The notes under the pieces were generated by a model. That model ran no database searches, had not been told where the DNA came from, and worked only from the letters and a program-made list of their open reading frames with translations. From Candidatus Onthousia faecipullorum (lineage in GTDB: Bacteria; Bacillota_I; Bacilli_A; RF39; UBA660), in NCBI GenBank assembly GCA_018715925.1, contig DVKQ01000092.1, forward strand, positions 1 to 41,509: 41,509 bases of DNA, given 5' to 3'. Numbering within the stretch: position 1 is the stretch's first letter; each line of letters starts with the position of its first letter. Of the stretch, positions 2,321 to 32,576 are shown one piece after another. The translations under genes and the position numbers were made by a program.

Positions 2321-4393
2321 TCATGTATAAGTCTTAATTTTATTATTAGTAAAGTCAAACATAACCATACCATTTATCTGAGTATTATATATTATAGAAC
2401 CATTTTCCTCTAGTCTTTCAATTACTTCTTTATGAGGATGATTAAATTTATTATCTACTCCTGCTGATATTAAAGCATAAGTAGGATTAACACTATCTAT
2501 AAACTCTTCACTACTACTAGTTCTAGAACCATGATGTCCTACTTTTAGTATTGTAATATCTCTTATATCATAATTATCTAAGATATACTCTTCACTTTTT
2601 ATACTAGCATCTCCCATAAATAGTAAACTCTTATCATTAATAGTACTATATAAGACTAAACTACCATCATTTTCATCAGGATATGTATTAGAGATAACTA
2701 AAAAATTAAAGTTACCTAAACTAAAACTATCTCCTTCTCTTAATTTATAATGACTTAGAGAATTATTCCATATCTTTTTCTCTAATTCGTTTAATAGATT
2801 ACCATTAAAGAAAACAGTACCAACATCTATCTCATCCATTATTGTAAGAGCCTCCCCTGCATGATCATAATCTCCATGAGTTAATACTAAATAATCTAGG
2901 TTTGTTATTCCTAAGGATTTAAGAAAAGTAACTAAATATTTACCACCGCTACTCTTTTCATACTGCATCCATTGTTCTTGATAATAAGTCATAACCCCTC
3001 CTGTATCTATTAACATAGTTTTATTATTTGATGTTATTAAGAAAGAATCTCCTTGTCCTACATCTATCATATATAAAGCATCTTTAGGAAACACTTTAGG
3101 ATAAGAGTAATGTATTACTATCATAAGTAATATTAAGAATAGAAATATTTTTCTTTTTATCTTAACAAATAAATAACTAAAGATAAGTATATAGTATAAT
3201 AAGTAGTAAACTATATTAAATCTTGCCAGGGTTATATAACCTATATTAAGGTGAGATAAAAATGAGACACTACCTTCAAAGATAGTTATAAAAAACTCTA
3301 AGATAAAAGATAAATGAGGTATAAAAAAACAAATAACTGATAATGGAAAGATAATTACATTAATAAAAGGAACATAGAAAAGATTATAAATTATACTAAG
3401 AGGATTAATATAAGAAAAATGATATAAAGAAATGGGTAAACTAACTAGGAAGCTTACCCATGATACTTCTAATAAGTCTATTATCTTGCCTTTACTTTTC
3501 TTATTATTCATGTATAAGATTAACGTACAACTTATAATTGTAGAGTACTGAAAACCTACATCAAATATGTAATAGGGATTTATAAAGAAAAGAATACTTA
3601 AAGATAATAGAATTAAGAAAGAAGGTAAAATATTTAAGTTAAAAGTTTTGTTTATAGAAAATACTAAACTAAAGATCAAAGCTCTATCAATCGCTGCACA
3701 GTCTTCTATTATTAAATAATAACTTAAAAGAACACAAATGATAAAAAGCAAATTTTTAAAACTTATAGATTTTTTACGTAACGTAAATAATGAAATTAGA
3801 AAACTTATTTGCGTTCCAGATAGAGCGAAAAGATGAGAAATGCCAAGATTTCTAAAATCTTCTTCTAAAGTAGTATTAAAAGAAGTATCATCTCCTAAGA
3901 AGAAGACTCTAATATAACTTCCTACTTTATCAGTTTTAATACTACTTCTAATAGCATTTCTAATACTGTATAAAATATTACTATTCTTAGATTCAATGTA
4001 AAAGCGAGAAACTTTCATTATATAGAAAATCTTTTGGTATTCAAGGTAGGTAGGATAAGAAAAACCGTGGAAATTCAAACTAGAAATGGGTTTGGTTAAC
4101 TCTCCTTCTAAAGTAAGAGTATCACCTAATGAAAGTTCTTGTTTTGTTTTATTTAATTCTTCTTTAGTATCAAAATAATAAGTGGCGATAAGTTTTTCTT
4201 TAGTTTTAAGTGTCAGTGTCATTTTATTACCTTGGTATTTTATAGATTCTACTTTACCAGTTACATTAGACTCACTCCCTTCAAACTTGGAAGTAAAATC
4301 TATGTTTATATAAATAACAAGATAAATTAAACTAATTATAAATAACGTAATATAAATAGATCTAAGTAGTAATACTTTCCTTAATTTGATCAA
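2321..4393 (-). CDS. comEC: ComEC/Rec2 competence DNA-transport protein
   Basis: Forms the membrane channel that takes in single-stranded DNA during transformation. 690 aa, in the usual range. An N-terminal soluble OB-like region (residues about 35-130) follows the first helix, then a long multi-helix competence domain (FALSGTQISFLISL marks its start), then a C-terminal metallo-beta-lactamase domain with LIDTGG and the metal-binding motif LTHGDYDHAGEA and GHHGS. The start is TTG with AGGAG nine bases upstream; it lies 32 bases inside comEA, so the two are coupled. The gene appears intact. Confidence 0.92.
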   Translation of the reverse strand: MIKLRKVLLLRSIYITLFIISLIYLVIYINIDFTSKFEGSESNVTGKVESIKYQGNKMTLTLKTKEKLIATYYFDTKEELNKTKQELSLGDTLTLEGELTKPISSLNFHGFSYPTYLEYQKIFYIMKVSRFYIESKNSNILYSIRNAIRSSIKTDKVGSYIRVFFLGDDTSFNTTLEEDFRNLGISHLFALSGTQISFLISLFTLRKKSISFKNLLFIICVLLSYYLIIEDCAAIDRALIFSLVFSINKTFNLNILPSFLILLSLSILFFINPYYIFDVGFQYSTIISCTLILYMNNKKSKGKIIDLLEVSWVSFLVSLPISLYHFSYINPLSIIYNLFYVPFINVIIFPLSVICFFIPHLSFILEFFITIFEGSVSFLSHLNIGYITLARFNIVYYLLYYILIFSYLFVKIKRKIFLFLILLMIVIHYSYPKVFPKDALYMIDVGQGDSFLITSNNKTMLIDTGGVMTYYQEQWMQYEKSSGGKYLVTFLKSLGITNLDYLVLTHGDYDHAGEALTIMDEIDVGTVFFNGNLLNELEKKIWNNSLSHYKLREGDSFSLGNFNFLVISNTYPDENDGSLVLYSTINDKSLLFMGDASIKSEEYILDNYDIRDITILKVGHHGSRTSSSEEFIDSVNPTYALISAGVDNKFNHPHKEVIERLEENGSIIYNTQINGMVMFDFTNNKIKTYT

Positions 4394-5072
4394 AGATAGC
4401 TTCTCCTATACCATTAACTTCTTTTAACTCTTCAATACTTTGAAATGCTCCTACTTCTTCCCGATATTTAAGTATAGCTTCTGCCTTAGACTCTCCAATA
4501 CCAGGGAGTGTCATTAACTCATCAAGGGTAGCGGTATTAAGGGATATTTTTCCACTAATTACTACACTACTAGAACTAGTATCACTAGTACTATCTTTAA
4601 TACAAGCATCGTTTATAATATCGTTTTGATTTATACAAGCTTCTTGTTCTATTTCTTCTTGTTCTTTAGTTTCTTTAAAGTTTGCAACTTCATCATAACT
4701 ATAGACTATTATAACCATTTCGTCTTTAACTTTCTTAGAAAGGTTTAAAACTGAAGTATCGGCTACTTCCGTTAAATCGCCTGCTAATCTAATGACATCA
4801 ATAACTCTACTTCCTTCTTTAACTGAGTAAATACCTGGAGTATTAACTTCTCCTTTAATATCTACTTGATAGTAAACTTCACTAACTTCTTTCTCCTCTT
4901 CATTCTTTGTAATATCTTTCTTTGTATTTAAAACAATATTTTTATCTTCTTTATCACTCGCAGTATAATTTTTATAGATTAAGAAGATTCCTATGACTAA
5001 TAGCAAAACAAGTCCTAAAGTACAAAGAATTATTTGTTTTCTATGACGATAAGTAAAAGTCATTTCATGCAT
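4362..5072 (-). CDS. comEA: ComEA competence DNA receptor
   Basis: Membrane-anchored receptor that binds double-stranded DNA and hands it to ComEC. 236 aa. A short cytoplasmic start, one membrane helix (IILCTLGLVLLLVIGIFLIY, about 14-33), an SLBB domain (DIKGEVNTPGIYSVKEGSRVIDVIRLAGD), a Ser/Asp-rich linker, and a C-terminal helix-hairpin-helix DNA-binding pair (LNTATLDELMTLPGIGESKAEAIL and ELKEVNGIGEAIFDQI). GGAGG lies five bases before the ATG. First gene of a comEA-comEC operon. Confidence 0.93.
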   Translation of the reverse strand: MHEMTFTYRHRKQIILCTLGLVLLLVIGIFLIYKNYTASDKEDKNIVLNTKKDITKNEEEKEVSEVYYQVDIKGEVNTPGIYSVKEGSRVIDVIRLAGDLTEVADTSVLNLSKKVKDEMVIIVYSYDEVANFKETKEQEEIEQEACINQNDIINDACIKDSTSDTSSSSVVISGKISLNTATLDELMTLPGIGESKAEAILKYREEVGAFQSIEELKEVNGIGEAIFDQIKESITT

Positions 5073-5242: not shown

Positions 5243-6382
5243 TCATTTTTTTTCATCTCTGAGCCTATTTTCGATATTAACACGTTGTACCATTGCAAGG
5301 GAAACCATTAAACACAAAGTAAAACTACCACCATAACTCATAAATGGTAAAGGTACTCCTGTCATTGGCATAAGCCCAAATAATCCCATTAAATTAACGA
5401 TAACATGTAAGAAAATATAGACAGCGACACCATAACAAAGTAAGGCTCCTCTATTGGTATAACTTTCTCTACCTATTTTTAGTATTCTATATAGTAAATA
5501 TAAATAGGCAAAAATAATAGCAATACCTGTTACAAGACCTAATTCTTCAACAATAACAGCAAAGATAAAGTCTGTATATGGATATGGTAAATATAAGTAC
5601 TTTTGAGTACTATTACCAAGACCTATACCAGTTAAACCACCATTATTGATAGCGATGTAACCATTACATACTTGATTACCTGTATCAAGTAATCTATCAC
5701 ATGGTCTTGTAAAATTAAATCTTTCTAGCTGTCTTGCTTGAAGAATACTACCTCCTGTCATAACAAGTACCGCTCCTACAACTAAACACATACCTATAAA
5801 TAGTGCAAGTACTTTTAACTTTATACTTTTAGAAACAGGAGATGAGAAAAAAATTATTCCTGTAAGAGCTGCAAAGATAATGGCAGTTCCTAAATCTGGC
5901 TGTAACATAATTAAAAATGTTATAATTACTCCTACTATTAAGGGAATTATAGCGATAAAGAAATTATTTAAACGTTTTTCATGGACTTCATAAAATCTTG
6001 CCATAAAGACTATCATAATTATTTTAATAAATTCACTTGGTTGTAAAGTAAATGGTCCTATAGGAATCCAACTAACAGCATAGTTTGTCGCTTTACCATA
6101 TATAAGTAAGAGAATAAGTACTGCTACAAAAAATACTAAAAGAATATTTGACATCATTCCGTAAAACTTGGTATTAAACTTAACCATGATTATGCAAAAG
6201 ATAAAACTTACGATTAAGAATAATCCTTGTCTTAAGAAATAAGCATAAGGACTTCCTCCGTTCATATATGATGTAACATTACTAGCAGAAAAAATCATTA
6301 CTAGTCCTAATACAAAGAGAATTAGAGTTAGAATAAATAATGGTTTATCTATATTTTTAATTATATCTTTAAGTTTAGTCAT
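5243..6382 (-). CDS. ftsW: FtsW/RodA/SpoVE-family peptidoglycan polymerase
   Basis: SEDS glycosyltransferase that polymerises lipid II with a partner class B PBP. 379 aa, about ten membrane helices. Family signatures are present: TLQPSEFIKI, MLQPDLGTA, NNGGLTGIGLGNSTQKYLYLPYPYTDFIFAVIVEELG, and the C-terminal MTGVPLPFMSYGGS. It stands alone with its own terminator. The sequence alone does not tell division FtsW from the spore-cortex paralogue SpoVE; the sporulation neighbours leave the latter open. Confidence 0.88.
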   Translation of the reverse strand: MTKLKDIIKNIDKPLFILTLILFVLGLVMIFSASNVTSYMNGGSPYAYFLRQGLFLIVSFIFCIIMVKFNTKFYGMMSNILLVFFVAVLILLLIYGKATNYAVSWIPIGPFTLQPSEFIKIIMIVFMARFYEVHEKRLNNFFIAIIPLIVGVIITFLIMLQPDLGTAIIFAALTGIIFFSSPVSKSIKLKVLALFIGMCLVVGAVLVMTGGSILQARQLERFNFTRPCDRLLDTGNQVCNGYIAINNGGLTGIGLGNSTQKYLYLPYPYTDFIFAVIVEELGLVTGIAIIFAYLYLLYRILKIGRESYTNRGALLCYGVAVYIFLHVIVNLMGLFGLMPMTGVPLPFMSYGGSFTLCLMVSLAMVQRVNIENRLRDEKK

Positions 6383-6466
6383 TATTCTAACCCTCCTTAT
6401 CTTTAGTCTTTTTCTTTAAGAATATCATAAAATCAAGATAGTTTAAAGAGAGCTAGTCAAATTCAT

Positions 6467-6500
6467 TAACAATTTGACATATTTTTTCATATCTTATAGT
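6467..6500 (+). promoter_or_regulatory. Candidate promoter of the yjcZ-like gene
   Basis: TTGACA (6474-6479) and TATAGT (6495-6500) are spaced by 15 bases. Overlapping this, TAACAAT (6467-6473) and CATATCTT (6488-6495) with a 14-base spacer partly fit the sigma-E consensus. Either sigma factor is possible. Confidence 0.35.
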
Positions 6501-6521
6501 AGAAAAAGGAGGTTTTTAACT

Positions 6522-6701
6522 ATGTATTATTATGGTGGTGGATCATTTAATTCATTCCCAAGTTGTGGCTGCTCTAACCAATGCTGGTTCCCTAGTTGTG
6601 GTTGGGGTTGGGGCTTTGGAAATAACAACAATAACTATGCCATAATTTTAGTTTTATTTATACTACTTGTTATTGTAATTGGTGCAAGATTCACAAGATA
6701 A
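6522..6701 (+). CDS. YjcZ-family small sporulation membrane protein
   Basis: 59 residues. It begins MYYYGGG, followed by a Cys/Gly/Trp-rich stretch (PSCGCSNQCWFPSCGWGWGFG) and a C-terminal membrane helix YAIILVLFILLVIVIGA that matches the YjcZ/YrzQ-type hydrophobic tail. The ATG at 6522 is preceded by AAAGGAGG; an upstream in-frame ATG at 6474 overlaps the promoter and has no ribosome site. Five cysteines in the N-terminal half are unusual for the family. The role is not established; it is probably expressed during sporulation. Confidence 0.7.
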   Translation: MYYYGGGSFNSFPSCGCSNQCWFPSCGWGWGFGNNNNNYAIILVLFILLVIVIGARFTR

Positions 6702-6725
6702 GAAAGGTTATCCTTTCTTTTTTTT
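6702..6725 (+). terminator. Terminator of the yjcZ-like gene
   Basis: GAAAGG TTAT CCTTTC followed by eight T, directly after the stop codon. Confidence 0.8.
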
Positions 6726-6765
6726 AAGAATTGTGTTAGAATATAGCAAGAAATGGGGTATTTAG

Positions 6766-7314
6766 ATGTTAAGAAATAAAGATATATTAGATGAAAAAGA
6801 TAAAAGATTAAGATTAGTTAGTAAAGATGTTACTTTTCCTTTAAGTAAAGATGACTTAAAGACTATTGATTTAATGGTAGAATATTTAACTAATAGTCAA
6901 ATAGAAAGATTATCAGAAAAGTATAATCTTCGTCCTGGTATGGGTATGGCAGCAATACAACTTGGTATTCCTAAAAGATATTTAGTTATTGTTCATGAAG
7001 TAGATGAAGAAGAATTTGATACTTATATTATTTGTAATCCTAAGATTATTAGTAATTCAGCTGAGAAGATTTATGTAGAAATGGGAGAAGGATGTTTATC
7101 TGTTAATCGGGAAGTTGATGGAATTGTACCAAGATATGCTAGAGTTACTGTAGAAGGATATGATACTAAAGGTAATAAAATTAGAATAAGAGCAAGAGAA
7201 GAACTTGCTATTGCCTTTCAGCACGAAATAGATCACTTAAATGGAGTTATGTTTACAGATTATATTGATTCTAAAAATCCATATAAAGATAGTGATAAGT
7301 ATAGAGCGATTTAA
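6766..7314 (+). CDS. def: Peptide deformylase
   Basis: Removes the N-formyl group from new proteins. 182 aa. All three family motifs are present: motif 1 GMGMAAIQLG (58-67), motif 2 EGCLSV with metal ligand Cys110, and motif 3 QHEIDHLNG with His153, Glu154 and His157. The extra N-terminal length and GMGMAA form of motif 1 fit type 2 (Gram-positive) deformylases. It stands alone between two terminators. Confidence 0.95.
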   Translation: MLRNKDILDEKDKRLRLVSKDVTFPLSKDDLKTIDLMVEYLTNSQIERLSEKYNLRPGMGMAAIQLGIPKRYLVIVHEVDEEEFDTYIICNPKIISNSAEKIYVEMGEGCLSVNREVDGIVPRYARVTVEGYDTKGNKIRIRAREELAIAFQHEIDHLNGVMFTDYIDSKNPYKDSDKYRAI

Positions 7315-7448: not shown

Positions 7449-8360
7449 ATGAAAAAATACATTGTTTTAATATTTTTAATTATTTTATTTGGATTTGCTT
7501 TTGCCTTTAGACGTCCTTTATATAATTTATATAGAACTTATTTTGTTAAAGAAGACAAAGATGTTATCTTAACATCATCTAATGATTATACAAGAGATTA
7601 TGATTTCAATTATGTACAAACAACTGATGACTTTACTCCTAGTGATTATCAAGACTTATTAAATATTTACTATACTGTTTTAAACTCTGGTGAAGAAGAA
7701 TTTTCCTTTTACTGCCCTGATGAGTACAAAGAGTGTTTAACTGATATAGATGGTCTTGCTAATAATCAAAGAGTATTGTCTACTATTAATAACTTTGTTC
7801 ATCCTTTTAATAGTTTTAGACATTTAGAGACTAGTTACGATGACTATGGTAAAGTAACTTTAAAAATAGAACATATTTATAGTGATAATGATATTAAGTT
7901 AATAAAAGCGAAAGTTAAAGAAATAGAAAGTACAATCTGGCAAGACAGTATGAGTGATGAAGACAAAATAAAAGAGGTCCATAACTATATTATTAATAAT
8001 AGTAAATATGATAGTGATAGAAGTGATAAAAATATTGTAAATTATAAATCAGATACTGCTTACGGTACTCTTTTACAAGGTTATAGTCTTTGTGGAGGAT
8101 ATACTGATGCCATGGAATTATTTTTAGAGGATATGGGAGTTAAAAGTTATAAAATATCATCTGAAAATCATGTATGGAATGCTCTATATTTAAATAATAC
8201 TTGGTATCACTTAGATCTTACATGGGATGATCCTATTACAACAGATGGTAGTGACATTTTAGAGTATAATTTCTTTTTAATAACAACTAGTGAATTAGAA
8301 GAACTAGAAGCTGAACAACACAATTATGATAAAAATGTTTATAGTGAACTTAGCGTGTAA
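7449..8360 (+). CDS. Membrane-anchored transglutaminase-like cysteine protein
   Basis: 303 aa. An N-terminal membrane helix (YIVLIFLIILFGFAFAF, 4-20) anchors an extracellular domain. Residues about 170-260 form a transglutaminase-like core: helix DEDKIKEVHNYIINNSKYD, Cys in LCGGYTDAM (about 214), His in ENHVWNAL (about 240), Asp in HLDLTWDDP (about 255). This is the papain-like triad order. It may act on peptides or the cell wall; substrate unknown. It lies directly upstream of the cotJ operon but has its own promoter. Confidence 0.8.
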   Translation: MKKYIVLIFLIILFGFAFAFRRPLYNLYRTYFVKEDKDVILTSSNDYTRDYDFNYVQTTDDFTPSDYQDLLNIYYTVLNSGEEEFSFYCPDEYKECLTDIDGLANNQRVLSTINNFVHPFNSFRHLETSYDDYGKVTLKIEHIYSDNDIKLIKAKVKEIESTIWQDSMSDEDKIKEVHNYIINNSKYDSDRSDKNIVNYKSDTAYGTLLQGYSLCGGYTDAMELFLEDMGVKSYKISSENHVWNALYLNNTWYHLDLTWDDPITTDGSDILEYNFFLITTSELEELEAEQHNYDKNVYSELSV

Positions 8361-22385: not shown

Positions 22386-23240
22386 TTAATTTTCCTCCCT
22401 TAATTTTTTTAACCTTTCATAATAGGTATTATTATTTATTTTTTCAACAGAATTGTTTGCCTGTTGCATAGGCACTTCTCTTACTTCTTGATAGCCACCT
22501 CGAACTACTTTAACTTTTTTAGTCATATCAAAAGATACCTCTCCATTAACAATTGAATAAGGTATCTTGTAAGTAGTTCTTTCTGATTCGATATTTGCAT
22601 AAATACAATTATTATCGTAATCTTCCAAATAACTATCTCTAATATTCTTTCTTAACTCTACTGATAAAAGTTCTCTTTTTTGAGATGCAGTCATAGTAGA
22701 GAAATCGGTCTTTTTAGGTTCTTTGGTATCTGTTTGAAACTCTTCAAAACGACACTCTATTAATTTAGATTCATTATCTCTCATTTCAATACTTGTTCCA
22801 TTATAAGCTGGAATTTTCTTATCATCTATTACAGATACTTCTAATAAATCTAAATCTCTAATAGTTCTTTCTGTTATACCATTATCTTTAGGAATACGAT
22901 CTTGCTTATTACAAATCATTCTAAAAGACCAACCTCTTAATAAGCCTTTTTTAGCTTTTTCAATAACAGTTGCATCTTCTGTTTCAACGATAGCCCTTAA
23001 ACCTATATTATCTTCATATAGTTTAGCAGTACCATCTTTAGTAGAAGCTAACTTTTTATCATCTTCGTGATCTAATAGAATAGGAACATCATCAGTTCGT
23101 TCTAATGCTCTTTTAAAGACACCAGGCATAACCCTTTCGATAAACTTTCCACTAGAGTCTATTAAAGGTTTTGAAAATCTTTCCACAGCATTAACATAAC
23201 CATCAAGTACGACCTTACCATTTCTTACTTCTATTTTCAT
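22386..23240 (-). CDS. Prohead protease (HK97 type, S78)
   Basis: 284 aa. N-terminal VVLDGYVNAVERFSKPL and GVFKRAL, catalytic His in PILLDHEDDKKLAS (about 58), catalytic Ser in RGWSFRM (about 105). The last 100 residues, beyond the usual protease core, are charged and may act in scaffolding. It overlaps the portal stop by 4 bases. Confidence 0.9.
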   Translation of the reverse strand: MKIEVRNGKVVLDGYVNAVERFSKPLIDSSGKFIERVMPGVFKRALERTDDVPILLDHEDDKKLASTKDGTAKLYEDNIGLRAIVETEDATVIEKAKKGLLRGWSFRMICNKQDRIPKDNGITERTIRDLDLLEVSVIDDKKIPAYNGTSIEMRDNESKLIECRFEEFQTDTKEPKKTDFSTMTASQKRELLSVELRKNIRDSYLEDYDNNCIYANIESERTTYKIPYSIVNGEVSFDMTKKVKVVRGGYQEVREVPMQQANNSVEKINNNTYYERLKKLREEN

Positions 23241-24442
23241 TTGTTATCACCTCCTATTTCAGTTACAGAGCCTGTGTTTGGTGTAAAGTATTTTTTATTC
23301 TTTATGTCATATAAAACATCACCTAAAGACATTCCGACAACGTCCATTCCATCTATAACGTCATAATCTTCTTTAGTTCTTATTTCATTAATAGATAACC
23401 ACCCTGTCTCTTTAGCAGTTTTATAAGCTTCATATCTTTCTTTTAGAGAACCTCTTGTTAATTCGCTTGTATCAAAGGCAAAATAAAAAGAGCCTTTCTC
23501 ACTCTCTAATAAAAAATCACGATTTAAAGAATCTTCAATAGCACTAATTATTGGTAACACAGCATATTTAATTGTATCATCATAAGTATCGCAAATGTGA
23601 AAGACATCTTTAATATCATTTTTCAATGTTTGTTTTCTTTCGTTCATCTGAAGTTCAACACTTGATGAAGCTCCTTCTTGAAATTCAATTCCTTCATTAA
23701 GAATAATTACGTTTTCATTAGCATTACCATAATATTCTCGCCAAGCATTTTTCAAAGCAATAAGTTCATCTTTACCTAACTTTCTTTTTGATGATAGAAA
23801 ACCTTTCTTACCTCCACCTTTTTGCACTAAGCCTAACTCATAGATAATAGTTGTATAAGCTGTTTCAATTGATTTAGTTATTTCTTCAATAGCACTTTTA
23901 CCTTTAGCACCATCTGTTGTATTTCTTAATATCGTTAAGAAGTTCCAAGTTTCATAATCTCTTGAATAAACCTGATACTTTATATCTTTAAATATCGGAT
24001 CTACATTTTTTAATATAGATACTTGTGTTGGCTCTACATATCTCAAACTCTTAAAATCATTTATTCCTTTTTCAATGAAAACATAAGCACCTTTTTCTGT
24101 TAAATAATCTTTAACTATTGCTTTTTTCATTTGCATTGGACTTAATGTATCGCCTGTTTCCCAATTCAAAATATGTGTTCTACTATCTTCTACTTTAATA
24201 GTTTTAACTGCACCTGTTTCTTGATCTTTTTCTTTTTTATAAAGATTAACAGGACAAATTGCTACTAAATTAGAAATTGTATCAACAGCACTTGAAATGG
24301 CAGGAATAGATAAAGCTTTCTCTTTATCAATAACTTCACCATTTATTAAAGCTCTTAATAAAGCATCAGAAGTATTAAAAGATGTATCTTCTTGTTCAAC
24401 TACAGGTTCTTCCCTAAAAAATAAATTATTAATAAAGTTCAC
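23237..24442 (-). CDS. Portal protein (HK97 type)
   Basis: 401 aa. The dodecameric DNA gateway. INGEVIDKEKALSIPAISSAVDTISNLVAICPVNLYKK is the standard portal N-terminal block; QEGASSSVELQMNERKQTLKNDIKDVFHI and LRYVEPTQ are also typical. I chose GTG at 24442, with AGAGGTGG seven bases upstream. An in-frame ATG at 24505 would place the leader terminator (24465-24503) inside the coding region. Confidence 0.9.
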   Translation of the reverse strand: MNFINNLFFREEPVVEQEDTSFNTSDALLRALINGEVIDKEKALSIPAISSAVDTISNLVAICPVNLYKKEKDQETGAVKTIKVEDSRTHILNWETGDTLSPMQMKKAIVKDYLTEKGAYVFIEKGINDFKSLRYVEPTQVSILKNVDPIFKDIKYQVYSRDYETWNFLTILRNTTDGAKGKSAIEEITKSIETAYTTIIYELGLVQKGGGKKGFLSSKRKLGKDELIALKNAWREYYGNANENVIILNEGIEFQEGASSSVELQMNERKQTLKNDIKDVFHICDTYDDTIKYAVLPIISAIEDSLNRDFLLESEKGSFYFAFDTSELTRGSLKERYEAYKTAKETGWLSINEIRTKEDYDVIDGMDVVGMSLGDVLYDIKNKKYFTPNTGSVTEIGGDNK

Positions 24443-24464
24443 ATTCGCACCACCTCTGTTCAAC

Positions 24465-24552
24465 AAAAAAAGACAATAGCCTTTAATTGCTTTTGCCTTT
24501 GTCATTTCTTACATATACAATATACCATACATTGAGTGTGAAAAATGTGAAA
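24465..24552 (-). promoter_or_regulatory. Late promoter copy 2 with adjacent terminator, before portal
   Basis: Read on the minus strand: TTTCACATTTTTCACA (24552-24537, two TTTCACA words two bases apart), 12 bases, TATATTGTATATG (24524-24512), then within about 10 bases a hairpin GACAA ... TTGTC (24503-24472) with seven T (24471-24465). The portal ribosome site follows. The same composite with the same 12-base spacing occurs at 27305-27345. Activator and -10 assignments are inference; the hairpin may also end the terL transcript. Confidence 0.6.
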
Positions 24553-24553
24553 G

Positions 24554-26290
24554 TTATACTTTTTCAACTTGAACTAAAAAACCATCATTATTTAAGAAAA
24601 CATCTTGTTGTAATAGATAAACTGCATCTATTAAAGCCATTACCATATCAACCTTTCCTATAGATTTCTTTTTAGAAACATAACGATTCATATTGGTATC
24701 GAAAGTACATTTAGCATTAGAGAAATTAATCTCTAAAAGTTTATTATCTTCATATTCAAATTCGCCACTCATAATTTTTTCATAAAGTAATTTTGTTGGC
24801 TGATGTAATGTATCACTATGTTGTCTTATAACTACTGTATTATATTTAGTATCCCATTTTTGAGCTGATGACATTGCATTAAATCTATCATAACCAATAG
24901 CCATTATAGATACATTATATTTTTCTTCAATAGAAAATACAAAATCTTCAATAACACTATAATCAATTATCTTATCTCCACAAGCTATACACTTCATAGC
25001 ATTTATAAATTCATAGTAATTAATTTTTTCCATTGCATTTTTTTCTTCTATTCTTCCTTCTGGTATAAAAGCCATTACTTCTGCTAGTATTTTTTCATCT
25101 TCTTCTGCTACCATAGCAACTGCACAATTATCATTAGAAATTGCTAAATCTACACCAATATAAACATTTCTATCAGACCAGTCTATTTTAGCAACTTTAC
25201 ATTTTTGAACTTCTGATACATCTATATAAGACTCTGTTCCCAAGCCTTGATAAATAATATTACAATGTTTAGTTAGAAAGTTTTCTCTAGTATTTTCTTG
25301 AATGATAGCTTTCATTCTTTTCTTAAGTAAATCTAAATATATACTTTCTATTTCAACTGCCAATGGATTAGACTGTAAAATAATTAAATCATTAGTAGTC
25401 CAGTCTTTAATTAGTTCTTCATCAGGTTCAAATAATAAAGAGAAATAAGTTTCATCTTCAATAGTACCATCTAAAACACCTTTACAATATTTAACTTCAT
25501 CTTCCATAGGATTAGTTATAGTAGGATATTTTGTAGAGATTATGAAACCTAATTTATTAAACACTAATAATTGACCTGATCTCATTGCTTCAATTGCATA
25601 AGAACTAGGTAATGCTCCAGCTTCATCAACAATATAAACACTAGGTTCTTTTCCATCAAGTCTTGAAGTAGAGTAATTTAGTGGTGTATATATATTCTCT
25701 GTTGGTAAATGAGTTATACTATCTCTTAATATTTTAAATTCATCATCTTCTAACACATCTGAATTTACTTTTATTAAAGGCTCTAATGCTTTTTTTATTT
25801 CTTTCGCTAATGCTCCATCTGGTGCAACACTAAAAAATCTTGAAAACTTTGGCTCTAAATAAAAAAGTATAAAAAAAAGAAAGGCTACAATAAATGTTTT
25901 ACCATTCTTTCTACATATTTCAAGAACTACAGTTTCATATCTTCTTTTCTTTTTATTCTCTCTATATACAGTACAAAGAGATGCTACAATTAAAAGCCAT
26001 TGATAACCAGATAATGAATTATAGATGCTATCACCTGCTTTTAATCCTTTTGCCATTTTTAATATTTTGCATAGTTTATCAATTTTCTTTACCCTTTTTT
26101 CATTGATAATATATTTAGAATTTTTTTCATCTGCTATATCTAAAAATTCTTGACATTGCAACTTAATATATTTTGGCTCTATAAATATTTCATTATTCTC
26201 ATAAAATACAGTCGGTGCTTCAACTAGATCATTAACAACAGCATAAGCATATAAATAACTAGGGTGATTTTTAATCATCTTCATCATCAC
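24554..26290 (-). CDS. Terminase large subunit
   Basis: 578 aa. DNA-packaging ATPase and nuclease. Walker A RKNGKT (127-132), Walker B SVYIVDEAG (218-224), then a nuclease domain with VYIGVDLAISND (about 382-393) and a final acidic cluster near GKVDMVMALIDAVYLL. Lambda/HK97-type (Terminase_1) organisation. It overlaps terS by 20 bases; the exact start among the first five Met codons is uncertain. Confidence 0.94.
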   Translation of the reverse strand: MMMKMIKNHPSYLYAYAVVNDLVEAPTVFYENNEIFIEPKYIKLQCQEFLDIADEKNSKYIINEKRVKKIDKLCKILKMAKGLKAGDSIYNSLSGYQWLLIVASLCTVYRENKKKRRYETVVLEICRKNGKTFIVAFLFFILFYLEPKFSRFFSVAPDGALAKEIKKALEPLIKVNSDVLEDDEFKILRDSITHLPTENIYTPLNYSTSRLDGKEPSVYIVDEAGALPSSYAIEAMRSGQLLVFNKLGFIISTKYPTITNPMEDEVKYCKGVLDGTIEDETYFSLLFEPDEELIKDWTTNDLIILQSNPLAVEIESIYLDLLKKRMKAIIQENTRENFLTKHCNIIYQGLGTESYIDVSEVQKCKVAKIDWSDRNVYIGVDLAISNDNCAVAMVAEEDEKILAEVMAFIPEGRIEEKNAMEKINYYEFINAMKCIACGDKIIDYSVIEDFVFSIEEKYNVSIMAIGYDRFNAMSSAQKWDTKYNTVVIRQHSDTLHQPTKLLYEKIMSGEFEYEDNKLLEINFSNAKCTFDTNMNRYVSKKKSIGKVDMVMALIDAVYLLQQDVFLNNDGFLVQVEKV

Positions 26291-26735
26291 CTAAAATATC
26301 CATTATAGACTTTTTATCTTTACCTGCATCTTTTGCACCAACTATGGATATTTTGGCTCTTGCCTGTGGAGATAAACACAGTTCATTACAACATCTAAAG
26401 AAATCTTTAGAATACATATCTCTAGTAGATTTAAATGAATTAGATATTAATAAACTAGCATCTTCATTAGCTTGTTTTTCTAAAGACTCTAATCTTTCTA
26501 TTGCAATAGCAGTCTGTGATAGAACAAAGACATCAAGATTACCTAAAATATCACTTTCTTTAAGTTCATTTAAAATAAACTTAAATACTTTCTTTTGTCT
26601 ATCGTTCAAATATTTAGGAGGTTTCAACTTATTACTTTTACCTTTAATCTTCTTCTCAGTTTCTTCTCTATTTTCTCTTTCTTCTTTACTAATTTTTTGA
26701 GTACTAACTGCCATTGCTTTTGCTGGTCGTGCCAT
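26271..26735 (-). CDS. Terminase small subunit (P27 family)
   Basis: 154 aa from the ATG at 26735, which has GAGGTGG seven bases upstream. MARPAKAM and the basic block KSNKLKPPKYLNDRQKKVFKFILNEL, followed by LGNLDVFVLSQTAIAIERL and LCLSPQARAKI, match P27-type small terminases, which recognise the packaging site. Confidence 0.9.
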   Translation of the reverse strand: MARPAKAMAVSTQKISKEERENREETEKKIKGKSNKLKPPKYLNDRQKKVFKFILNELKESDILGNLDVFVLSQTAIAIERLESLEKQANEDASLLISNSFKSTRDMYSKDFFRCCNELCLSPQARAKISIVGAKDAGKDKKSIMDILGDDEDD

Positions 26736-26820
26736 ATTACCACCTCTCATTTTTCATTTTCGGCATTTTTTGTGTTTTGTGGGGGTGGGTAGGTTTTGAA
26801 AAAAGTTTATTTTTTAAATT

Positions 26821-27243
26821 TTAAAAGGTAGGGGGGACTATCTTTGAAGAAATAAACTCTTTTATATCTTTTAAAGAACAACCTCTATTAATCATTAATA
26901 AGACTTCCCTAGGTATTAAGTTCTTATCTGCTTTCTTATGATGTAAACAACATAAAGTAATTAAATTATCATCATCAAATGATAAAGTATTATCTTCTTC
27001 TATTGGTACTATATGGTGAACTTCAAGTTTTTTATAGTTAAAAGTATCATAAGTATCATAGAGATTTCTTATACATAATTGACATAAATATTGGTCTCTA
27101 TCCTTAATCTCTTCACTCTTTTTGTGCCATCTATTAGTAGCACGAACTTTAACTGCATTACTATCTTTCTTTTTAGTCATATTAGCATAGCATTTAAAAT
27201 TAATATCATGTATTTTCCCACACCTACTACAACTTTTTTTCAA
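26821..27243 (-). CDS. HNH endonuclease of the packaging module
   Basis: 140 aa. CSRCGKIHDINFKC and CQLC-CCLHH pairs bind metal; the HNH core is LEVHHIVPIEEDNTLSFDDDNLITLCCLHHKKAD. Phage HNH proteins in this position are required with the terminase for specific cleavage at packaging in HK97-like phages. The start is TTG with GAGGGTG seven bases upstream. First gene of the late operon. Confidence 0.88.
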   Translation of the reverse strand: MKKSCSRCGKIHDINFKCYANMTKKKDSNAVKVRATNRWHKKSEEIKDRDQYLCQLCIRNLYDTYDTFNYKKLEVHHIVPIEEDNTLSFDDDNLITLCCLHHKKADKNLIPREVLLMINRGCSLKDIKEFISSKIVPPTF

Positions 27244-27267
27244 AATAAAACACCCTCTTTTTATACG

Positions 27268-27345
27268 AAAAAAGCTATCATAATGATAACTTTTTAATAT
27301 ATTTCATATACAATATAGCACTATTTTGATGTGAAAAATGTGAAA
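27268..27345 (-). promoter_or_regulatory. Late promoter copy 1 with adjacent terminator, before HNH-terS-terL
   Basis: Minus strand: TTTCACATTTTTCACA (27345-27330), 12 bases, TATATTGTATATG (27317-27305), then hairpin AAAG-TATCAT/ATGATA-CTTT (27293-27271) with six T (27273-27268). It lies between the early operon and the first late gene. Architecture matches the copy at 24465-24552. Confidence 0.65.
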
Positions 27346-27351
27346 AATATA

Positions 27352-27774
27352 TTATATTTTATGCTCTTTTTTTATCTCACTAATAATTCGTTCAAATGCT
27401 TCTTCTGCTGTCAAATATCCTTTAACAGTATCTTCTTTTAATTCATCAAGAGTTAAGCACCCCATTATTTCAAGTAAATCTTGATTGGCACCATATGTTC
27501 CATCACCTTCAATTACCGATATTAGTCTTCCACCAAATATACTATTTATAGTTATTTGATAAAATTTGTTATTAGCAACATCTCTAGTTCGAAAGCAATG
27601 ATCTATGTTTGCTTTAGTTAACATAAAATCTAATTTAAATATTTCATTATAATTATCTAATATTTTATACTTTTTCTGATATTTGTTAATGACTGCTACT
27701 GCTTTATCAACAATATTAACTTCCCAATTTGAACATTCTATTTGTTTTAATCTTTTTAGTTCTTCTTCACTCAT
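27352..27774 (-). CDS. Unknown early phage protein
   Basis: 140 aa from the ATG at 27774 (GAGGTG nine bases upstream). Features: SEEELKRLKQIECSNWEVNIVDKAVAVINKYQKKY, a beta-rich middle (FMLTKANIDHCFRTRDVANNKFYQITINSIFGG) and a helical end. No family recognised. Last gene of the early operon, just before the late promoter. Confidence 0.6.
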   Translation of the reverse strand: MSEEELKRLKQIECSNWEVNIVDKAVAVINKYQKKYKILDNYNEIFKLDFMLTKANIDHCFRTRDVANNKFYQITINSIFGGRLISVIEGDGTYGANQDLLEIMGCLTLDELKEDTVKGYLTAEEAFERIISEIKKEHKI

Positions 27775-27776
27775 TA

Positions 27777-28019
27777 CTAATAACACCTCGTTAACATACT
27801 TTTCTCTTTAACTAGAATTTCTATAACCTTTCCTTTTTCCAAAATGATTACACAATTACATTCATAAAACAAATCACTTATTTGTTGTATCATGTGTTCT
27901 AATGTTTTTGTTTTAGATATGCTTTCTTCTTTCTTGTTAACGAAATGCATATATTCATTTTTTGTTGGAAATATCTCATTTTTATAAATTGGAATGACAT
28001 CTAAAGTTATCTCTTCCAT
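27777..28019 (-). CDS. Unknown small early phage protein
   Basis: 80 aa from the ATG at 28019 (GGAG nine bases upstream); an ATG three codons earlier is possible. It contains LEHMIQQISDLFYECNCVIILEKGKVIEILVKEKSML, an alpha-beta pattern. Not recognised. Confidence 0.55.
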   Translation of the reverse strand: MEEITLDVIPIYKNEIFPTKNEYMHFVNKKEESISKTKTLEHMIQQISDLFYECNCVIILEKGKVIEILVKEKSMLTRCY

Positions 28020-28024
28020 TACTA

Positions 28025-28294
28025 TCATCTCCTCTTCCTAAATTGTTTAGTAACTCTAACTTCATCTTGGTTATTTAAGTATCTCTTAAAATTTGCATAG
28101 TCTGCTATATGTCCCATATATAAGAACACTGGAAATTCTACATTATCTTCTTCATTGCATTCTATCCCCAATATTTTTTCTTTAGTTTTTTGCTCCAATA
28201 TTAACCAATCTAAACAGAATATCGTTTCATCTTTAGTATATGTACCTAAATTATAATAGCCATTAGTACCAGTAACATATAATCTATATTTCAT
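28025..28294 (-). CDS. Unknown small early phage protein
   Basis: 89 aa. MKYRLYVTGTNGYYNLGTYTKDETIF at the start, VFLYMGHIADYANFKRYL in the middle and a basic end KQFRKRR. Start overlaps the previous gene by 4 bases (ATGA). No family recognised. Confidence 0.6.
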   Translation of the reverse strand: MKYRLYVTGTNGYYNLGTYTKDETIFCLDWLILEQKTKEKILGIECNEEDNVEFPVFLYMGHIADYANFKRYLNNQDEVRVTKQFRKRR

Positions 28295-28434
28295 TTGTTC
28301 CTCTTTTTAGCTATAAAATAAACAATTGCTAAAATTATTGTTAATGGTATAACCAAAGCTAAGGCTATAGTTAGTTGGTCCATATAAGTTAATTCTGCTT
28401 GTGGTGTAGTAAATAAATCTATTATTTTATCCAT
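28291..28434 (-). CDS. Small phage membrane protein
   Basis: 47 aa: DKIIDLFTTPQAELTYMDQL, then one membrane helix (TIALALVIPLTIILAIVYFI) and a basic tail AKKRNK. It is coupled at both ends (TAATG with the upstream gene, ATGA with the downstream one). Function unknown. Confidence 0.65.
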   Translation of the reverse strand: MDKIIDLFTTPQAELTYMDQLTIALALVIPLTIILAIVYFIAKKRNK

Positions 28435-28709
28435 TATTCCACCTCTTTTAAAGTATCTAATAAATTATCAATATAGTTGCTAGGATAGCCACCTGTCGTT
28501 TTTCTTAATTCATCTATTTCATAAATAGTTTTAGTTAACTTATCAATTACTTCTTTTTGTTTTTCATTTTCTTTTAAGAGGCACTCTATATCTTTACAAT
28601 GTTCTATACAGAAATTATCAAAATCACTCATATCGCACCTGCCACTTTTATATTCACTATATATAACATCTTCTTCTAGGTATTGTTTTAATCTTTCTTT
28701 ATAGTTCAT
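28434..28709 (-). CDS. Unknown small early phage protein
   Basis: 91 aa, mostly helical and charged, with LLKENEKQKEVIDKLTKTIYEIDELRKTTGGYPSNYIDNLLDTLKEVE as a coiled-coil second half (about 45-91). Four Cys in the first half might bind metal. Not recognised. Confidence 0.6.
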   Translation of the reverse strand: MNYKERLKQYLEEDVIYSEYKSGRCDMSDFDNFCIEHCKDIECLLKENEKQKEVIDKLTKTIYEIDELRKTTGGYPSNYIDNLLDTLKEVE

Positions 28710-29104: not shown

Positions 29105-29371
29105 CTAAATTTCTATTTCAACACCAAATGTATAACTTTTGCCATCTCGTTTTTCTATTAAACTGCTTTTATAATTAATAATCTTTAAATAACTATTATA
29201 AGTTAATCTTAACTTTTCTGGCATTTTATGTTCTTGCCTAACATATCCCTCAATATTTTTAACAATTATATTTAATAAAACTTCCACATCAACATCATCA
29301 TATTTAGTTACAAATAATGTTGTTCCTTTATATTTCTTATCTTCATTTATTTTATTTTTTGATTTAAACAT
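29105..29371 (-). CDS. Unknown early phage protein
   Basis: 88 aa. TTLFVTKYDDVDVEVLLNIIVKNIEGYVRQEHKMPEKLRLTYNSYLKIINY; globular, no membrane segment. Start overlaps the PcfJ-like stop by 8 bases. Not recognised. Confidence 0.6.
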   Translation of the reverse strand: MFKSKNKINEDKKYKGTTLFVTKYDDVDVEVLLNIIVKNIEGYVRQEHKMPEKLRLTYNSYLKIINYKSSLIEKRDGKSYTFGVEIEI

Positions 29372-30776
29372 ATTTTTCTTCTCCTTTTCTTAAAATATTT
29401 TTTTCCCATTTTTTTAAAAAATTCTTCTGTTCTTTTGTAGTATCATTGTTATTTTTGGTTCTTTGTTGAACTACCTCATTATTTCTTACCTCTACAGTTA
29501 CCAATGATTTATCTTTAGCATTTGATAATCTCATGAAATAAATATCACACTCTGCTTTTGCATATCTTTCTGCATAAGTCTTTACACAATTATTTTGCTG
29601 ACTACTTTCATCAATAAGTTCATTAATATCTTTAACTGGATAAATTATATACTTATCATCTTCATAATAATTAGACAATAATTTCTTATATCTTCTTTTT
29701 ATTTTTTTACTCAAAGCCTCATCTTTTTTTATTTGAATTTCTTTCATCAGTTGATCATGTTTCGCTTTTAACTTTTTAGGATATAATATTTTTTTGTCTT
29801 TTAGGTTATACTTTAATTCTTTAGCCATTCTTAAGTAATCACAATATAAATAAGCATCTTTAGAAACAATTTTATAATTAATTAAATCATAAGGATTACA
29901 AAGTTCTAATAGTTCTTTTAATAAATGTGCTGGAACATTAGAAAAGAATTTAATTAATGAGTAATCTTTTATCTTTAACTGTCTTAATAATTCAAGTTCA
30001 TTATATGTAATGTTGTTATCTTGCATAAATTTTAAATAACTTCTATCTAAGCCAAAAACTTCTTCAAACTTACCCTTTTTAAAACAATAATAATCATTTG
30101 CTAAATTATAAAGTTTTGCTTTTGATAACAATTCTAATGAGTAATTATTCTCATATAAGCCACCTAGCAATTGTTCAACATTAACTTCATCAGAATTAAT
30201 AAATATGTCTCTAGGATTAAAATATTTACTTTTAACAGTACCATTATCGACATAACAACTACCATAAGTAGATACATATAATTCAGGCTTCCAATAGGAA
30301 ACATCTTCTGTGTAATTTATATAAAAGTAACCACTAAGAGTTTTTCTCATTGTATTAATAATTGAAGAAAATTCTACATAACCTTCATTATCTATTAACT
30401 GCCTACCATATTCTGTAATTATATGTTTCATACTATCATTAGAACCTAAATAACTTCTAATTTTATAATTTCTTAATATATAATTATCATCTTTGTAATT
30501 AATCAAATACATACAATACTCTTTATCATCAAATCTTCTACTTCGTTTTATTAATAGCTTTTGATTACAATTAGGACAAGTATCATAATCATTTATTTTC
30601 TTATTACTAATAAACTCTTTTTGACATTTAGAACAAATACATTTATTTTTTTCCTTTATTCCAATATATTTTTTCTTATCATCTAACCATTTCTCAAAGC
30701 CTATACTATTTCTAAAAGCATCAGTAAAAGTGTTTATTTCATTGATTTTATCTCTTGTTTTTTTATTGATATACAT
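29364..30776 (-). CDS. PcfJ-like protein
   Basis: 470 aa. Residues about 45-85 form a zinc ribbon (CICSKCQKEFISNKKINDYDTCPNCNQKL). The C-terminal block (EDDKYIIYPVKDINELIDESSQQNNCVKTYAERYAKAECDIYFMRL, SLVTVEVRNNEVVQQRTKNNNDTTKEQKNFLKKWEK) is the PcfJ domain, first seen on the conjugative plasmid pCF10 and common in phages and mobile elements of Firmicutes. Biochemical role unknown. It follows a PcfK-like gene with no gap, the usual pairing. Confidence 0.85.
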   Translation of the reverse strand: MYINKKTRDKINEINTFTDAFRNSIGFEKWLDDKKKYIGIKEKNKCICSKCQKEFISNKKINDYDTCPNCNQKLLIKRSRRFDDKEYCMYLINYKDDNYILRNYKIRSYLGSNDSMKHIITEYGRQLIDNEGYVEFSSIINTMRKTLSGYFYINYTEDVSYWKPELYVSTYGSCYVDNGTVKSKYFNPRDIFINSDEVNVEQLLGGLYENNYSLELLSKAKLYNLANDYYCFKKGKFEEVFGLDRSYLKFMQDNNITYNELELLRQLKIKDYSLIKFFSNVPAHLLKELLELCNPYDLINYKIVSKDAYLYCDYLRMAKELKYNLKDKKILYPKKLKAKHDQLMKEIQIKKDEALSKKIKRRYKKLLSNYYEDDKYIIYPVKDINELIDESSQQNNCVKTYAERYAKAECDIYFMRLSNAKDKSLVTVEVRNNEVVQQRTKNNNDTTKEQKNFLKKWEKNILRKGEEKYV

Positions 30777-31148
30777 TTAATCAAACAAGCTTAATTGTCC
30801 TTCTGGAATCCAATTTTTATTCTTTTTAACTGTAGATTTCTTTTCTTCTTTTACTTCAACATCTGACTTTGTTTTTGATATTTTTAAGTCTTTATTAGAC
30901 TCATCAAAATAATGAATAGCCCAACTATACACTTCATCATCTTCTATCATAGCAACACCATTAGTTGCTTTTTCTTTAGCCTTTGCTTTTATAAACTCTA
31001 TCATCTGAGTTAAACTTTTTTCTTCATTTAAATATTTTTCATTCATATCTTTTCTTGATAAAAGATAATTTATAATCTTTAAAACTGCTTTATCTTTAAC
31101 TTCTGCTGATAGTTTTTTTATTCTTTCTAATCCTAACTGTTCTTCCAT
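30777..31148 (-). CDS. PcfK-like protein
   Basis: 123 aa. LKIINYLLSRKDMNEKYLNEEKSLTQMIEFIKAKAKEKATNGVAMIEDDEVYSWAIHYFDE and the terminal GQLSLFD are typical of PcfK-like proteins. A Lys/Glu-rich linker separates the helical core from the tail. Partner of the next gene. Confidence 0.85.
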   Translation of the reverse strand: MEEQLGLERIKKLSAEVKDKAVLKIINYLLSRKDMNEKYLNEEKSLTQMIEFIKAKAKEKATNGVAMIEDDEVYSWAIHYFDESNKDLKISKTKSDVEVKEEKKSTVKKNKNWIPEGQLSLFD

Positions 31149-31371
31149 TGTTACCCTCCAATTCTTTCATACGTTCTTTTAAATTTTTATTGCTATTCTT
31201 TAATCTCTTAACTGTTTTTTCTAAAGAACTTATCTTTTCCTTTTCTGATAATTGATTTAAAAAGCCTTTATAAAGATCATCTTTAATAATTTTCCTTAAA
31301 CTACTTACTTCATTTTTTAATGTATTAATTTCTTTCTTATAATTTTTCATCATCTTCATTATCTTCTTCAT
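31096..31371 (-). CDS. Coiled-coil early phage protein
   Basis: Up to 91 aa. Almost entirely charged coiled coil (YKKEINTLKNEVSSLRKIIKDDL, EKEKISSLEKTVKRLKNSNKNLKERMKELE), ending in a basic tail. Several Met codons near the start make the exact beginning uncertain (31371, 31359 or 31350). Overlaps the pcfK-like gene by 53 bases, which is long; the tail beyond GGNN may be a by-product. Unknown role. Confidence 0.5.
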   Translation of the reverse strand: MKKIMKMMKNYKKEINTLKNEVSSLRKIIKDDLYKGFLNQLSEKEKISSLEKTVKRLKNSNKNLKERMKELEGNNGRTVRIRKNKKTISRS

Positions 31372-31759
31372 CTTCCTTATGCTTTTCCAAATAATTTTTT
31401 ATTTTGTAATAAGGACTTGTTCTATCATATTGAAGTTCTTTACCTATCTCATTCCAAGTCTTTAAATCTATAAATCTCATTCTTACAATAGTTTGAATTT
31501 CAACATCATCAATATTATCAATAAAGGTTTCTATTTCTAGCTCCTCATCATATAGTTTTTTTAATTTCTTTTCTAAATTATCTTTTAGTTTTATTTTAGT
31601 TTCTGCAATATTTTCAACAGGACTACTAACTTTATTAGTGTGAACATTGTTATCTTTAAAAGAAGAACTAGATATTTCAGAAATACTATTTATTCTTTCT
31701 TTTAATTGCTTAATCTGTTTTTTTATGAAAAATAATTTAGATAGTTTTTTTATCGTCAT
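31337..31759 (-). CDS. ArpU/RinA-like late transcription regulator
   Basis: 140 aa from the ATG at 31759 (GAGGATA nine bases upstream). A helical N-terminus (IKKLSKLFFIKKQIKQLKERINSI) resembles DUF1492-type starts, and the C-terminal part has a sigma region 4-like helix-turn-helix: VEIQTIVRMRFIDLKTWNEIGKELQYDRTSPYYKIKNYLEKH. Such proteins (ArpU, RinA, DUF1492) activate phage late genes. It is the best candidate to act at the duplicated element at 24512-24552 and 27305-27345; that link is inference. Confidence 0.7.
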   Translation of the reverse strand: MTIKKLSKLFFIKKQIKQLKERINSISEISSSSFKDNNVHTNKVSSPVENIAETKIKLKDNLEKKLKKLYDEELEIETFIDNIDDVEIQTIVRMRFIDLKTWNEIGKELQYDRTSPYYKIKNYLEKHKEDEEDNEDDEKL

Positions 31760-32576
31760 TGCTAGTATCCTCACTTTCATCTTCTAACCAGTCATAATCA
31801 TATATCTCTTTGTAATCATCATCAGTTGGCTCTTTATTTTTATATTTTGTTTCTTTAGATTCAATATCTTCTAAACTGCTAATACCTGCTTTTTCCCAAT
31901 TATTTAATATTCCACTAATATAAGCGAAAGTAAATTTATTATTTAAAATAGCAATATCAACAGCTTTCTTAATCATCGTTTCATCAAACACCGACAACCA
32001 CGACTTTATTTTCTCTTTCTCTAAAGGAACAATATCTCTTTTAAAGTTATCTTCTATATATTTAGTAATATTAGTTGTAGTAGTAGTTATTAAATTAATA
32101 TCTATATTCTTATTTCTTATTTCTTTATTCTTATTTCTTATTTCTGGTGGACACTTGTCCGCCTCTTGTCCGCTAGTTGTCTTTTCTTCATTTTTAAGCA
32201 TTCTTTGTTGTTGTTTCTTAAATGCACCAATAGACTTAGAACCTATCATATTTTGAATCTGACTTAAATAAATTTCACCATTTTCTAAAATCTCTACTAA
32301 TCCTATTTTTTGTAAAAGTTCCATAGCAACAACAACTGTATCGACATCTATTCTAGTTAACTCTGCTAACTTTGAAGCATCATAAGGAACTAGCATTTGT
32401 CCTACTTGTCTAATTAATATCCCATTCGTTTTTAAAGATTTCAAACATAATTTTAGGTAAAACAAAGAATATTCTTTACCATTAGGCTGTTCTTCAAGCC
32501 ATTGTATTGCATCATCATCAAAAAAATCTTCATTTAACATTAGCCAACTAAATTTAGTAGTATCATATTTTGACAT
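31737..32576 (-). CDS. Phage replisome organizer with DnaD-like C-terminus
   Basis: 279 aa. The N-terminal winged-helix domain (FSWLMLNEDFFDDDAIQWLEEQPNGKEYSLFYLKLCLKSLKTNGIL ... DVDTVVVAMELLQKIGLVEI) is the phage replisome-organizer fold. The C-terminal part (about 175-235, YIEDNFKRDIVPLEKEKIKSWL ... FTFAYISGILNNWEKAGI) is a DnaD domain. It should bind the phage origin and recruit host helicase. No helicase loader is encoded nearby, so host DnaI/DnaC may serve. A repeat inside the gene (32101-32150) may be the origin. Confidence 0.88.
   Translation of the reverse strand: MSKYDTTKFSWLMLNEDFFDDDAIQWLEEQPNGKEYSLFYLKLCLKSLKTNGILIRQVGQMLVPYDASKLAELTRIDVDTVVVAMELLQKIGLVEILENGEIYLSQIQNMIGSKSIGAFKKQQQRMLKNEEKTTSGQEADKCPPEIRNKNKEIRNKNIDINLITTTTTNITKYIEDNFKRDIVPLEKEKIKSWLSVFDETMIKKAVDIAILNNKFTFAYISGILNNWEKAGISSLEDIESKETKYKNKEPTDDDYKEIYDYDWLEDESEDTSNDDKKTI
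32101..32150. repeat. Direct repeats inside the replisome organizer gene
   Basis: Two copies of ATTCTTATTTCTTATTTCT separated by two bases, encoding IRNKNKEIRNKN on the minus strand. Phage origins often lie within the organizer gene and consist of short repeats, so this is a candidate origin. Confidence 0.5.

Follow-up and report, generated by a model that had tools for sequence, protein, structure and literature searches.

Why a prophage should place a terminator-like hairpin right after the start of its late transcripts, and do so twice, is the question raised by two minus-strand elements in the window (the whole stretch of DNA analyzed here, 41,509 nucleotides). The composite motif TTTCACATTTTTCACA-N12-TATATTGTATATG is present at 27345-27305, ahead of HNH-terS-terL (P1), and at 24552-24512, ahead of the portal gene (P2). 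Judging from position and homology, we take these to be two putative late promoters of one prophage. The answer that we favor, with a probability of about 60%, is that a DUF1492/RinA-like regulator activates P1 and P2 and also carries polymerase past the leader terminators.

Two composite modules ahead of late genes

The first-pass annotation had reported two copies of the motif at these positions with the same 12-base spacing, and this is confirmed: TTTCACATTTTTCACA has two exact copies in the window and two in the whole 1.41 Mb genome, in both cases those of P1 and P2. The features concerned are the following:

27330-27345, minus strand, P1 operator: direct repeat TTTCACA-TT-TTTCACA, 9-bp period, at about -40 to -25; kept in relatives
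24537-24552, minus strand, P2 operator: direct repeat identical to that of P1, at about -40 to -25; kept in relatives
27312-27320, minus strand, P1 extended -10: TGC-TATATT; ATGnTATAAT is near-invariant in relatives
24519-24527, minus strand, P2 extended -10: TGG-TATATT; TGn is near-invariant in relatives
27268-27295, minus strand, P1 leader hairpin and T run, terminator-like: about +11 to +38; compensatory pairs in relatives
24465-24500, minus strand, P2 leader hairpin and T run, terminator-like: about +13 to +48; compensatory pairs in relatives
26821-27243, minus strand, HNH endonuclease gene, the first gene of the late operon
26271-26750, minus strand, terS
24554-26290, minus strand, terL
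23237-24442, minus strand, portal gene; a GTG start at 24442 is likelier than ATG at 24505
31337-31759, minus strand, candidate late regulator (DUF1492/phrog_36, RinA-like): coiled coil and sigma-region-4-like helix-turn-helix (HTH)

Read along the minus strand, P1 consists of TTTCACATTTTTCACA (27345-27330), the spacer TCAAAATAGTGC, TATATT (27317-27312) and GTATATG (27311-27305), and P2 of TTTCACATTTTTCACA (24552-24537), the spacer CTCAATGTATGG, TATATT (24524-24519) and GTATATG (24518-24512). The two spacers, described earlier as unrelated, do differ in sequence, but both end in TGn directly ahead of TATATT, which makes an extended -10, and TG before the hexamer is near-invariant among the modules of relatives. 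TTCACA-N17-TGTATA was also considered as the promoter and rejected: the hexamer that relatives conserve is TATAAT at N12 with TGn ahead of it, so that the extended -10 reading fits better. GTA right after the -10 (27311-27305 and 24518-24512 in the window) is invariant throughout the TTCACA group of phages, and about 5 nt beyond it TGTAgRA is common.

A hairpin and a T run had been noted shortly after each motif, and we found them starting at about +11 in P1 and +13 in P2, with +1 assumed to lie about 7 nt past the -10, i.e., near 27305 and 24512. The P1 stem (27295-27269, T run 27273-27268) folds as RNA with its flanks at -11.7 kcal/mol (z -5.95) and the P2 stem (24500-24469, T run 24471-24465) at -10.5 kcal/mol (z -2.87); the T runs are 6-7 T long. 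From the same assumed starts, terminated RNAs would measure about 38 nt (P1) and 48 nt (P2), in line with the 40-50 nt expected from the first reading of the sequence. Both stems are rich in A and U, which could make them weak terminators. A strict terminator scan, in which a stem needs three or more G-C pairs and must be followed by its tail, lists neither. Double changes that preserve pairing affect 5 of 10 pairs across nine P1 hairpins and 4 of 10 across nine P2 hairpins.

The longest portal ORF begins at 24505 and overlaps the P2 leader hairpin; the ribosome-binding site AGAGGTGG and the homologues make the in-frame GTG at 24442 the more likely start. Upstream of P1, the early region holds DnaD-like and integrase-like genes and the DUF1492 regulator gene. 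PcfJ-like and PcfK-like genes lie just downstream of the regulator (29364-31148, minus strand), also in the early region; PcfJ and PcfK are families named from conjugative plasmids.

Conservation and placement of the leader terminators

Other genomes of this class and family contain terL relatives at 65-73% identity. When terL and portal were used as single query sequences against viral and genome contigs, nothing was returned; an alignment-based scan of IMG/VR gave terL relatives in 361 stretches, of which 80 were kept. The search of related prophages proposed by the first-pass annotation recovered the composite: a hairpin and T run accompany 20 of 20 pattern-matched TTCACA-type modules (a few of them near-duplicate loci), the hairpin beginning 16-29 nt past the -10. 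Phages of this group, whose module consensus is AAcTTTCACAtttTTCACAcT...ATGnTATAATGTA, carry the module in the HNH leader and also in the terL-portal gap, and the latter (P2) copy recurs in about ten distinct phages. The more remote relatives G343, L066, L072, L073 and L084 have no P2 module where the gap is readable; ahead of HNH they show the same build with another repeat, CAGTA/GAGTA. In another phage, L154, one terminator lies at the stop of the regulator gene and a second one past the late promoter.

Several other observations were made on these loci. Downstream of the regulator in L157 (oriented positions about 1989-2320), two complete modules stand in series; their operators differ (GTCATACCTT and GAGCCAT), while their -10 and hairpin segments are near-identical. 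In a subset of relatives, the stretch from the P1 terminator to HNH contains a long inverted repeat, TTTATATGAGAGTATGA ... TCGTACTCTCATATAAGC (9173-9265 of L038, and the matching place in L051, L055, L057 and L052), which is possibly a cos site or a leader structure. A CRISPR array of 13 repeats lies on the minus strand of L041 (genome G016, same genus), around 6300-6900 and beyond. One of its spacers is identical over 30/30 nt to the P2 operator-promoter (24557-24528 of the window), and three more match terL (28/30), portal (27/30) and a tail-side region (27-nt exact), at window positions 24675-24646, 23843-23814 and 10359-10333, respectively; the target flanks TGGTA and AGGTA suggest an NGGTA-like PAM.

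We then counted terminators, defined as a hairpin and T run of -7 kcal/mol or better, over a diverse set of 53 non-redundant late leaders that includes phi11, phi13 and TP901-1. Part of this set was picked by eye from phrog_36 hits, the next genes there being likewise judged by eye; the genome searches with phrog_36 and phrog_248 also match sigma factors, and only strong hits were kept. A sense-strand terminator is present in 38 of the 53 leaders and an antisense one in 8, where dinucleotide-preserving shuffles expect 2.1. Control co-directional gaps have one in 37 of 183 cases, which gives the leaders an odds ratio of 10 (P 7.8e-12), related phages within the set being not fully independent. 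Several of the 15 leaders without a terminator by these criteria have their promoter elsewhere or a hairpin just below the threshold. Relative to the best -10, chosen by a promoter and repeat score that makes some wrong picks (e.g., in TP901-1), the terminator lies downstream in 37 leaders and upstream in 5. At other TGnTATAWT sites, a terminator occurs within 75 nt in 15 of 74, nearly all 15 being late modules of other phages.

The well-known phages show the same arrangement. phi11 (L146) has TGGCAGT repeats on the RinA side, TATTAT at 4382, a terminator at 4455-4484 and terS at 4527; phi13 (L145) has 18-bp repeats within the end of ltr, TATAAT near 4055 and a terminator at 4092-4118; TP901-1 (L147) has a terminator at 3519-3542 with terS directly after it at 3563. 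In A118 (L148) the terminator (7956-7979) lies at longer range, about 210-220 nt beyond the likely start. The late regulators of phi13 (phrog_1058) and TP901-1 (phrog_2198) belong to PHROGs other than that of RinA, and the layout is therefore not confined to one protein family. Lys and Ala tRNA-like genes (ARAGORN) lie between the late promoter and the terminator of TP901-1 (L147, 3135-3376).

A RinA-like candidate regulator from the early region

The TTTCACA repeat had been proposed as the binding site of a factor that carries polymerase past the hairpins. The likely best candidate for a protein that binds it is the DUF1492/RinA-type product of the early region. Its ORF (31337-31780) matches phrog_36 with an E value of 1e-20, and phrog_248 as well, and it scores above the gathering threshold of Pfam DUF1492 (1.9e-8); RinA of phi11 falls in the same PHROG, phrog_36 (E 1.9e-38). 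The gene is probably 31337-31759, because the homologues begin at the second methionine. Among 24 aligned homologues, 21 match DUF1492 and 12 the sigma-70 region 4 model. The predicted structure (mean pLDDT 85) is a long antiparallel coiled coil with a C-terminal HTH. Against the PDB it yields weak matches (best E 0.97), sigma region 4 domains among them, together with generic long coiled-coil matches, including Gfh1 (Z 7.6-7.7); the viral matches are DUF1492 proteins. The gene adjoining P1 (27352-27786) was rejected as the regulator, having neither a family match nor a homologue in the genus.

The candidate has a sequence match to Ltr/RinA-type proteins, and tandem direct repeats lie just upstream of the HNH/terS promoter. 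Its gene is about 4 kb upstream of P1, inside the early region, while many phrog_36 loci show direct adjacency, so that we assign it to the Ltr/RinA type by sequence and operator layout and not by gene position. The recognition helices of these proteins fall into classes that track the operators: (D/E)R(T/S)(T/S)-type with TTCACA, SExxxF-type with CAGTA or GAGTA, and RWH-type with GAnCC-like repeats. Over 16 phages and these three classes, which were assigned by eye, the concordance has a naive permutation probability of 5e-7, a value that shared ancestry inflates. Since both classes partly follow phylogeny, the match is not independent evidence for each phage.

A putative promoter-loaded antiterminator and its known counterparts

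Under the model that we favor, the regulator encoded at 31337-31759 would switch on both P1 and P2, its sigma-region-4-like HTH binding the tandem TTTCACA at about -40 to -25 and the bound protein replacing the missing -35 element beside the extended -10. In its absence, RNA begun at P1 or P2, or coming from upstream, would stop at the hairpin and T run, leaving ends 38-48 nt downstream of the start. In its presence, polymerase would leave the promoter in a terminator-resistant state, and the packaging and head genes would be transcribed. The strongest argument is the placement itself, because a terminator right after an activated promoter wastes transcripts unless polymerase passes it, and this placement recurs in P2, in L154 (besides its separate upstream terminator) and in the tandem modules of L157.

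The regulator might instead activate initiation only, the hairpin being an insulating terminator against read-through from upstream through which a strong promoter leaks enough. Such a role would fit the report that Ltr/RinA-type proteins are transcription activators that need their repeats (PMC13123087), the early genes that immediately precede P1, and the A/U-rich stems, which may leak. Insulators should, however, lie upstream of the promoter no less often than downstream, against the 37 downstream and 5 upstream that are observed; L154 has a separate upstream terminator in addition; and mere insulation of the early operon is argued against by P2, since there, within the late operon of about ten phages, a terminator again follows the promoter. 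We regard activation alone as unlikely. The phi13 data bear on this point: the P23 reporter, spanning -200 to +50, needs Ltr for activity (PMC13123087). With +1 placed by us at about 4067 of L145, the phi13 terminator stem occupies about +28 to +47 and its T run begins at +47/+48. The construct thus neither tests nor needs antitermination, because its +50 end cuts the T run. The words "terminator" and "antiterminat" occur zero times in that paper (PMC13123087), and none of the papers covered by the literature search joins a late transcriptional regulator, phage and terminator, a mention of leader terminators in Quiles-Puchalt 2013 or Ferrer 2011 being possible.

A quite improbable explanation is that read-through is controlled by a host factor, by a different factor of the phage or by refolding of the leader RNA, with no part for the DUF1492 protein. 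In its favor, the hairpins are conserved and covary, and the fold searches link the regulator to no antiterminator. Against it, Rfam has no RNA-family match over 23000-28500, a riboswitch-like element would not fit into so short a leader, and apart from the hairpin strong conservation is confined to the operator repeats and the -10 region. The least probable is that the hairpin is a 5′ stem-loop for stability or translation of late mRNA, or a short regulatory RNA, and that its T run is incidental: the hairpin does sit at the 5′ end of the transcript, near the ribosome-binding site, but the T run is conserved and strand-specific, as the sense, antisense and shuffle counts of the leaders attest.

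That both related and well-known phages carry the promoter-terminator unit suggests that a large family of "late activators" also enables polymerase read-through. The new element is this antitermination reading of RinA/Ltr-type regulators, known so far for transcription activation. We give even odds to the broader proposal that Gram-positive RinA/Ltr-type regulators are promoter-loaded processive antiterminators, a counterpart of Q built from a sigma-region-4-like domain and a coiled coil, with leader terminators general across unrelated Ltr families. If true, it would explain how a very common regulator class, RinA and its relatives, switches on late genes, and Gram-positive phages would gain a Q-like switch. 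It would also mean that activator reporters ending before the terminator missed half of the mechanism, and would bear on phage satellites that depend on RinA-type regulators. The model can be tested in phi11, phi13 or TP901-1.

Compared with the Ltr superfamily (phi11 RinA, phi13 Ltr and TP901-1 Alt), the system shares a small early-region protein, direct repeats just upstream of the late promoter ahead of HNH/terS and, in the named phages too, a terminator separating that promoter from the first late gene; it differs by the distance of about 4 kb between regulator gene and P1 and by the second module ahead of portal. The parallel drawn at first was with Q of lambda and phage 21, and it holds in part. 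As there, a late promoter has an intrinsic terminator shortly downstream, here as a sequence feature, and the architecture is well supported: distant phages keep the operator, the promoter and the terminator as a unit, at the packaging operon as well as in mid-operon ahead of portal. The operator place does not agree: the Q-type binding element lies between -35 and -10, whereas the repeats here, at about -40 to -25, end 12 nt ahead of the -10 hexamer, and the regulator appears to be needed for initiation too. Nor does a lambda-like sigma-pause element stand out: despite the invariant GTA and the frequent TGTAgRA there is no clean -10-like hexamer, TA being found at offset 13 in 43% of 46 modules and TAnnnT at the expected offset in 9%. 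No Q protein is among the sequence or fold matches of the regulator, which are limited to short sigma-region-4-like ones, and 21Q, considered as a fold match, is absent from the list.

Other known systems show that such proteins can act in this way. 21Q binds a 6-bp direct repeat through a sigma-region-4-like HTH (PMC6606751), so a domain of this kind on a direct repeat can work as Q does. AlpA of Pseudomonas (PMC7969949) and GafZ of Caulobacter, the latter with a predicted sigma-like HTH (PMC11150451), are DNA-binding regulators that were first taken for activators but proved to take polymerase through terminators, so that supposed activators can be Q-like. The AlpA terminators begin at +54 and +26 (PMC7969949), close to the +11 to +48 found here, whereas the sites of AlpA and GafZ lie between -35 and -10 and their hosts are others. 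Because the operator lies upstream of an extended -10 and a -10-like hexamer in the initial transcript is not clear, the P1/P2 system may work like Q without belonging to the Q family.
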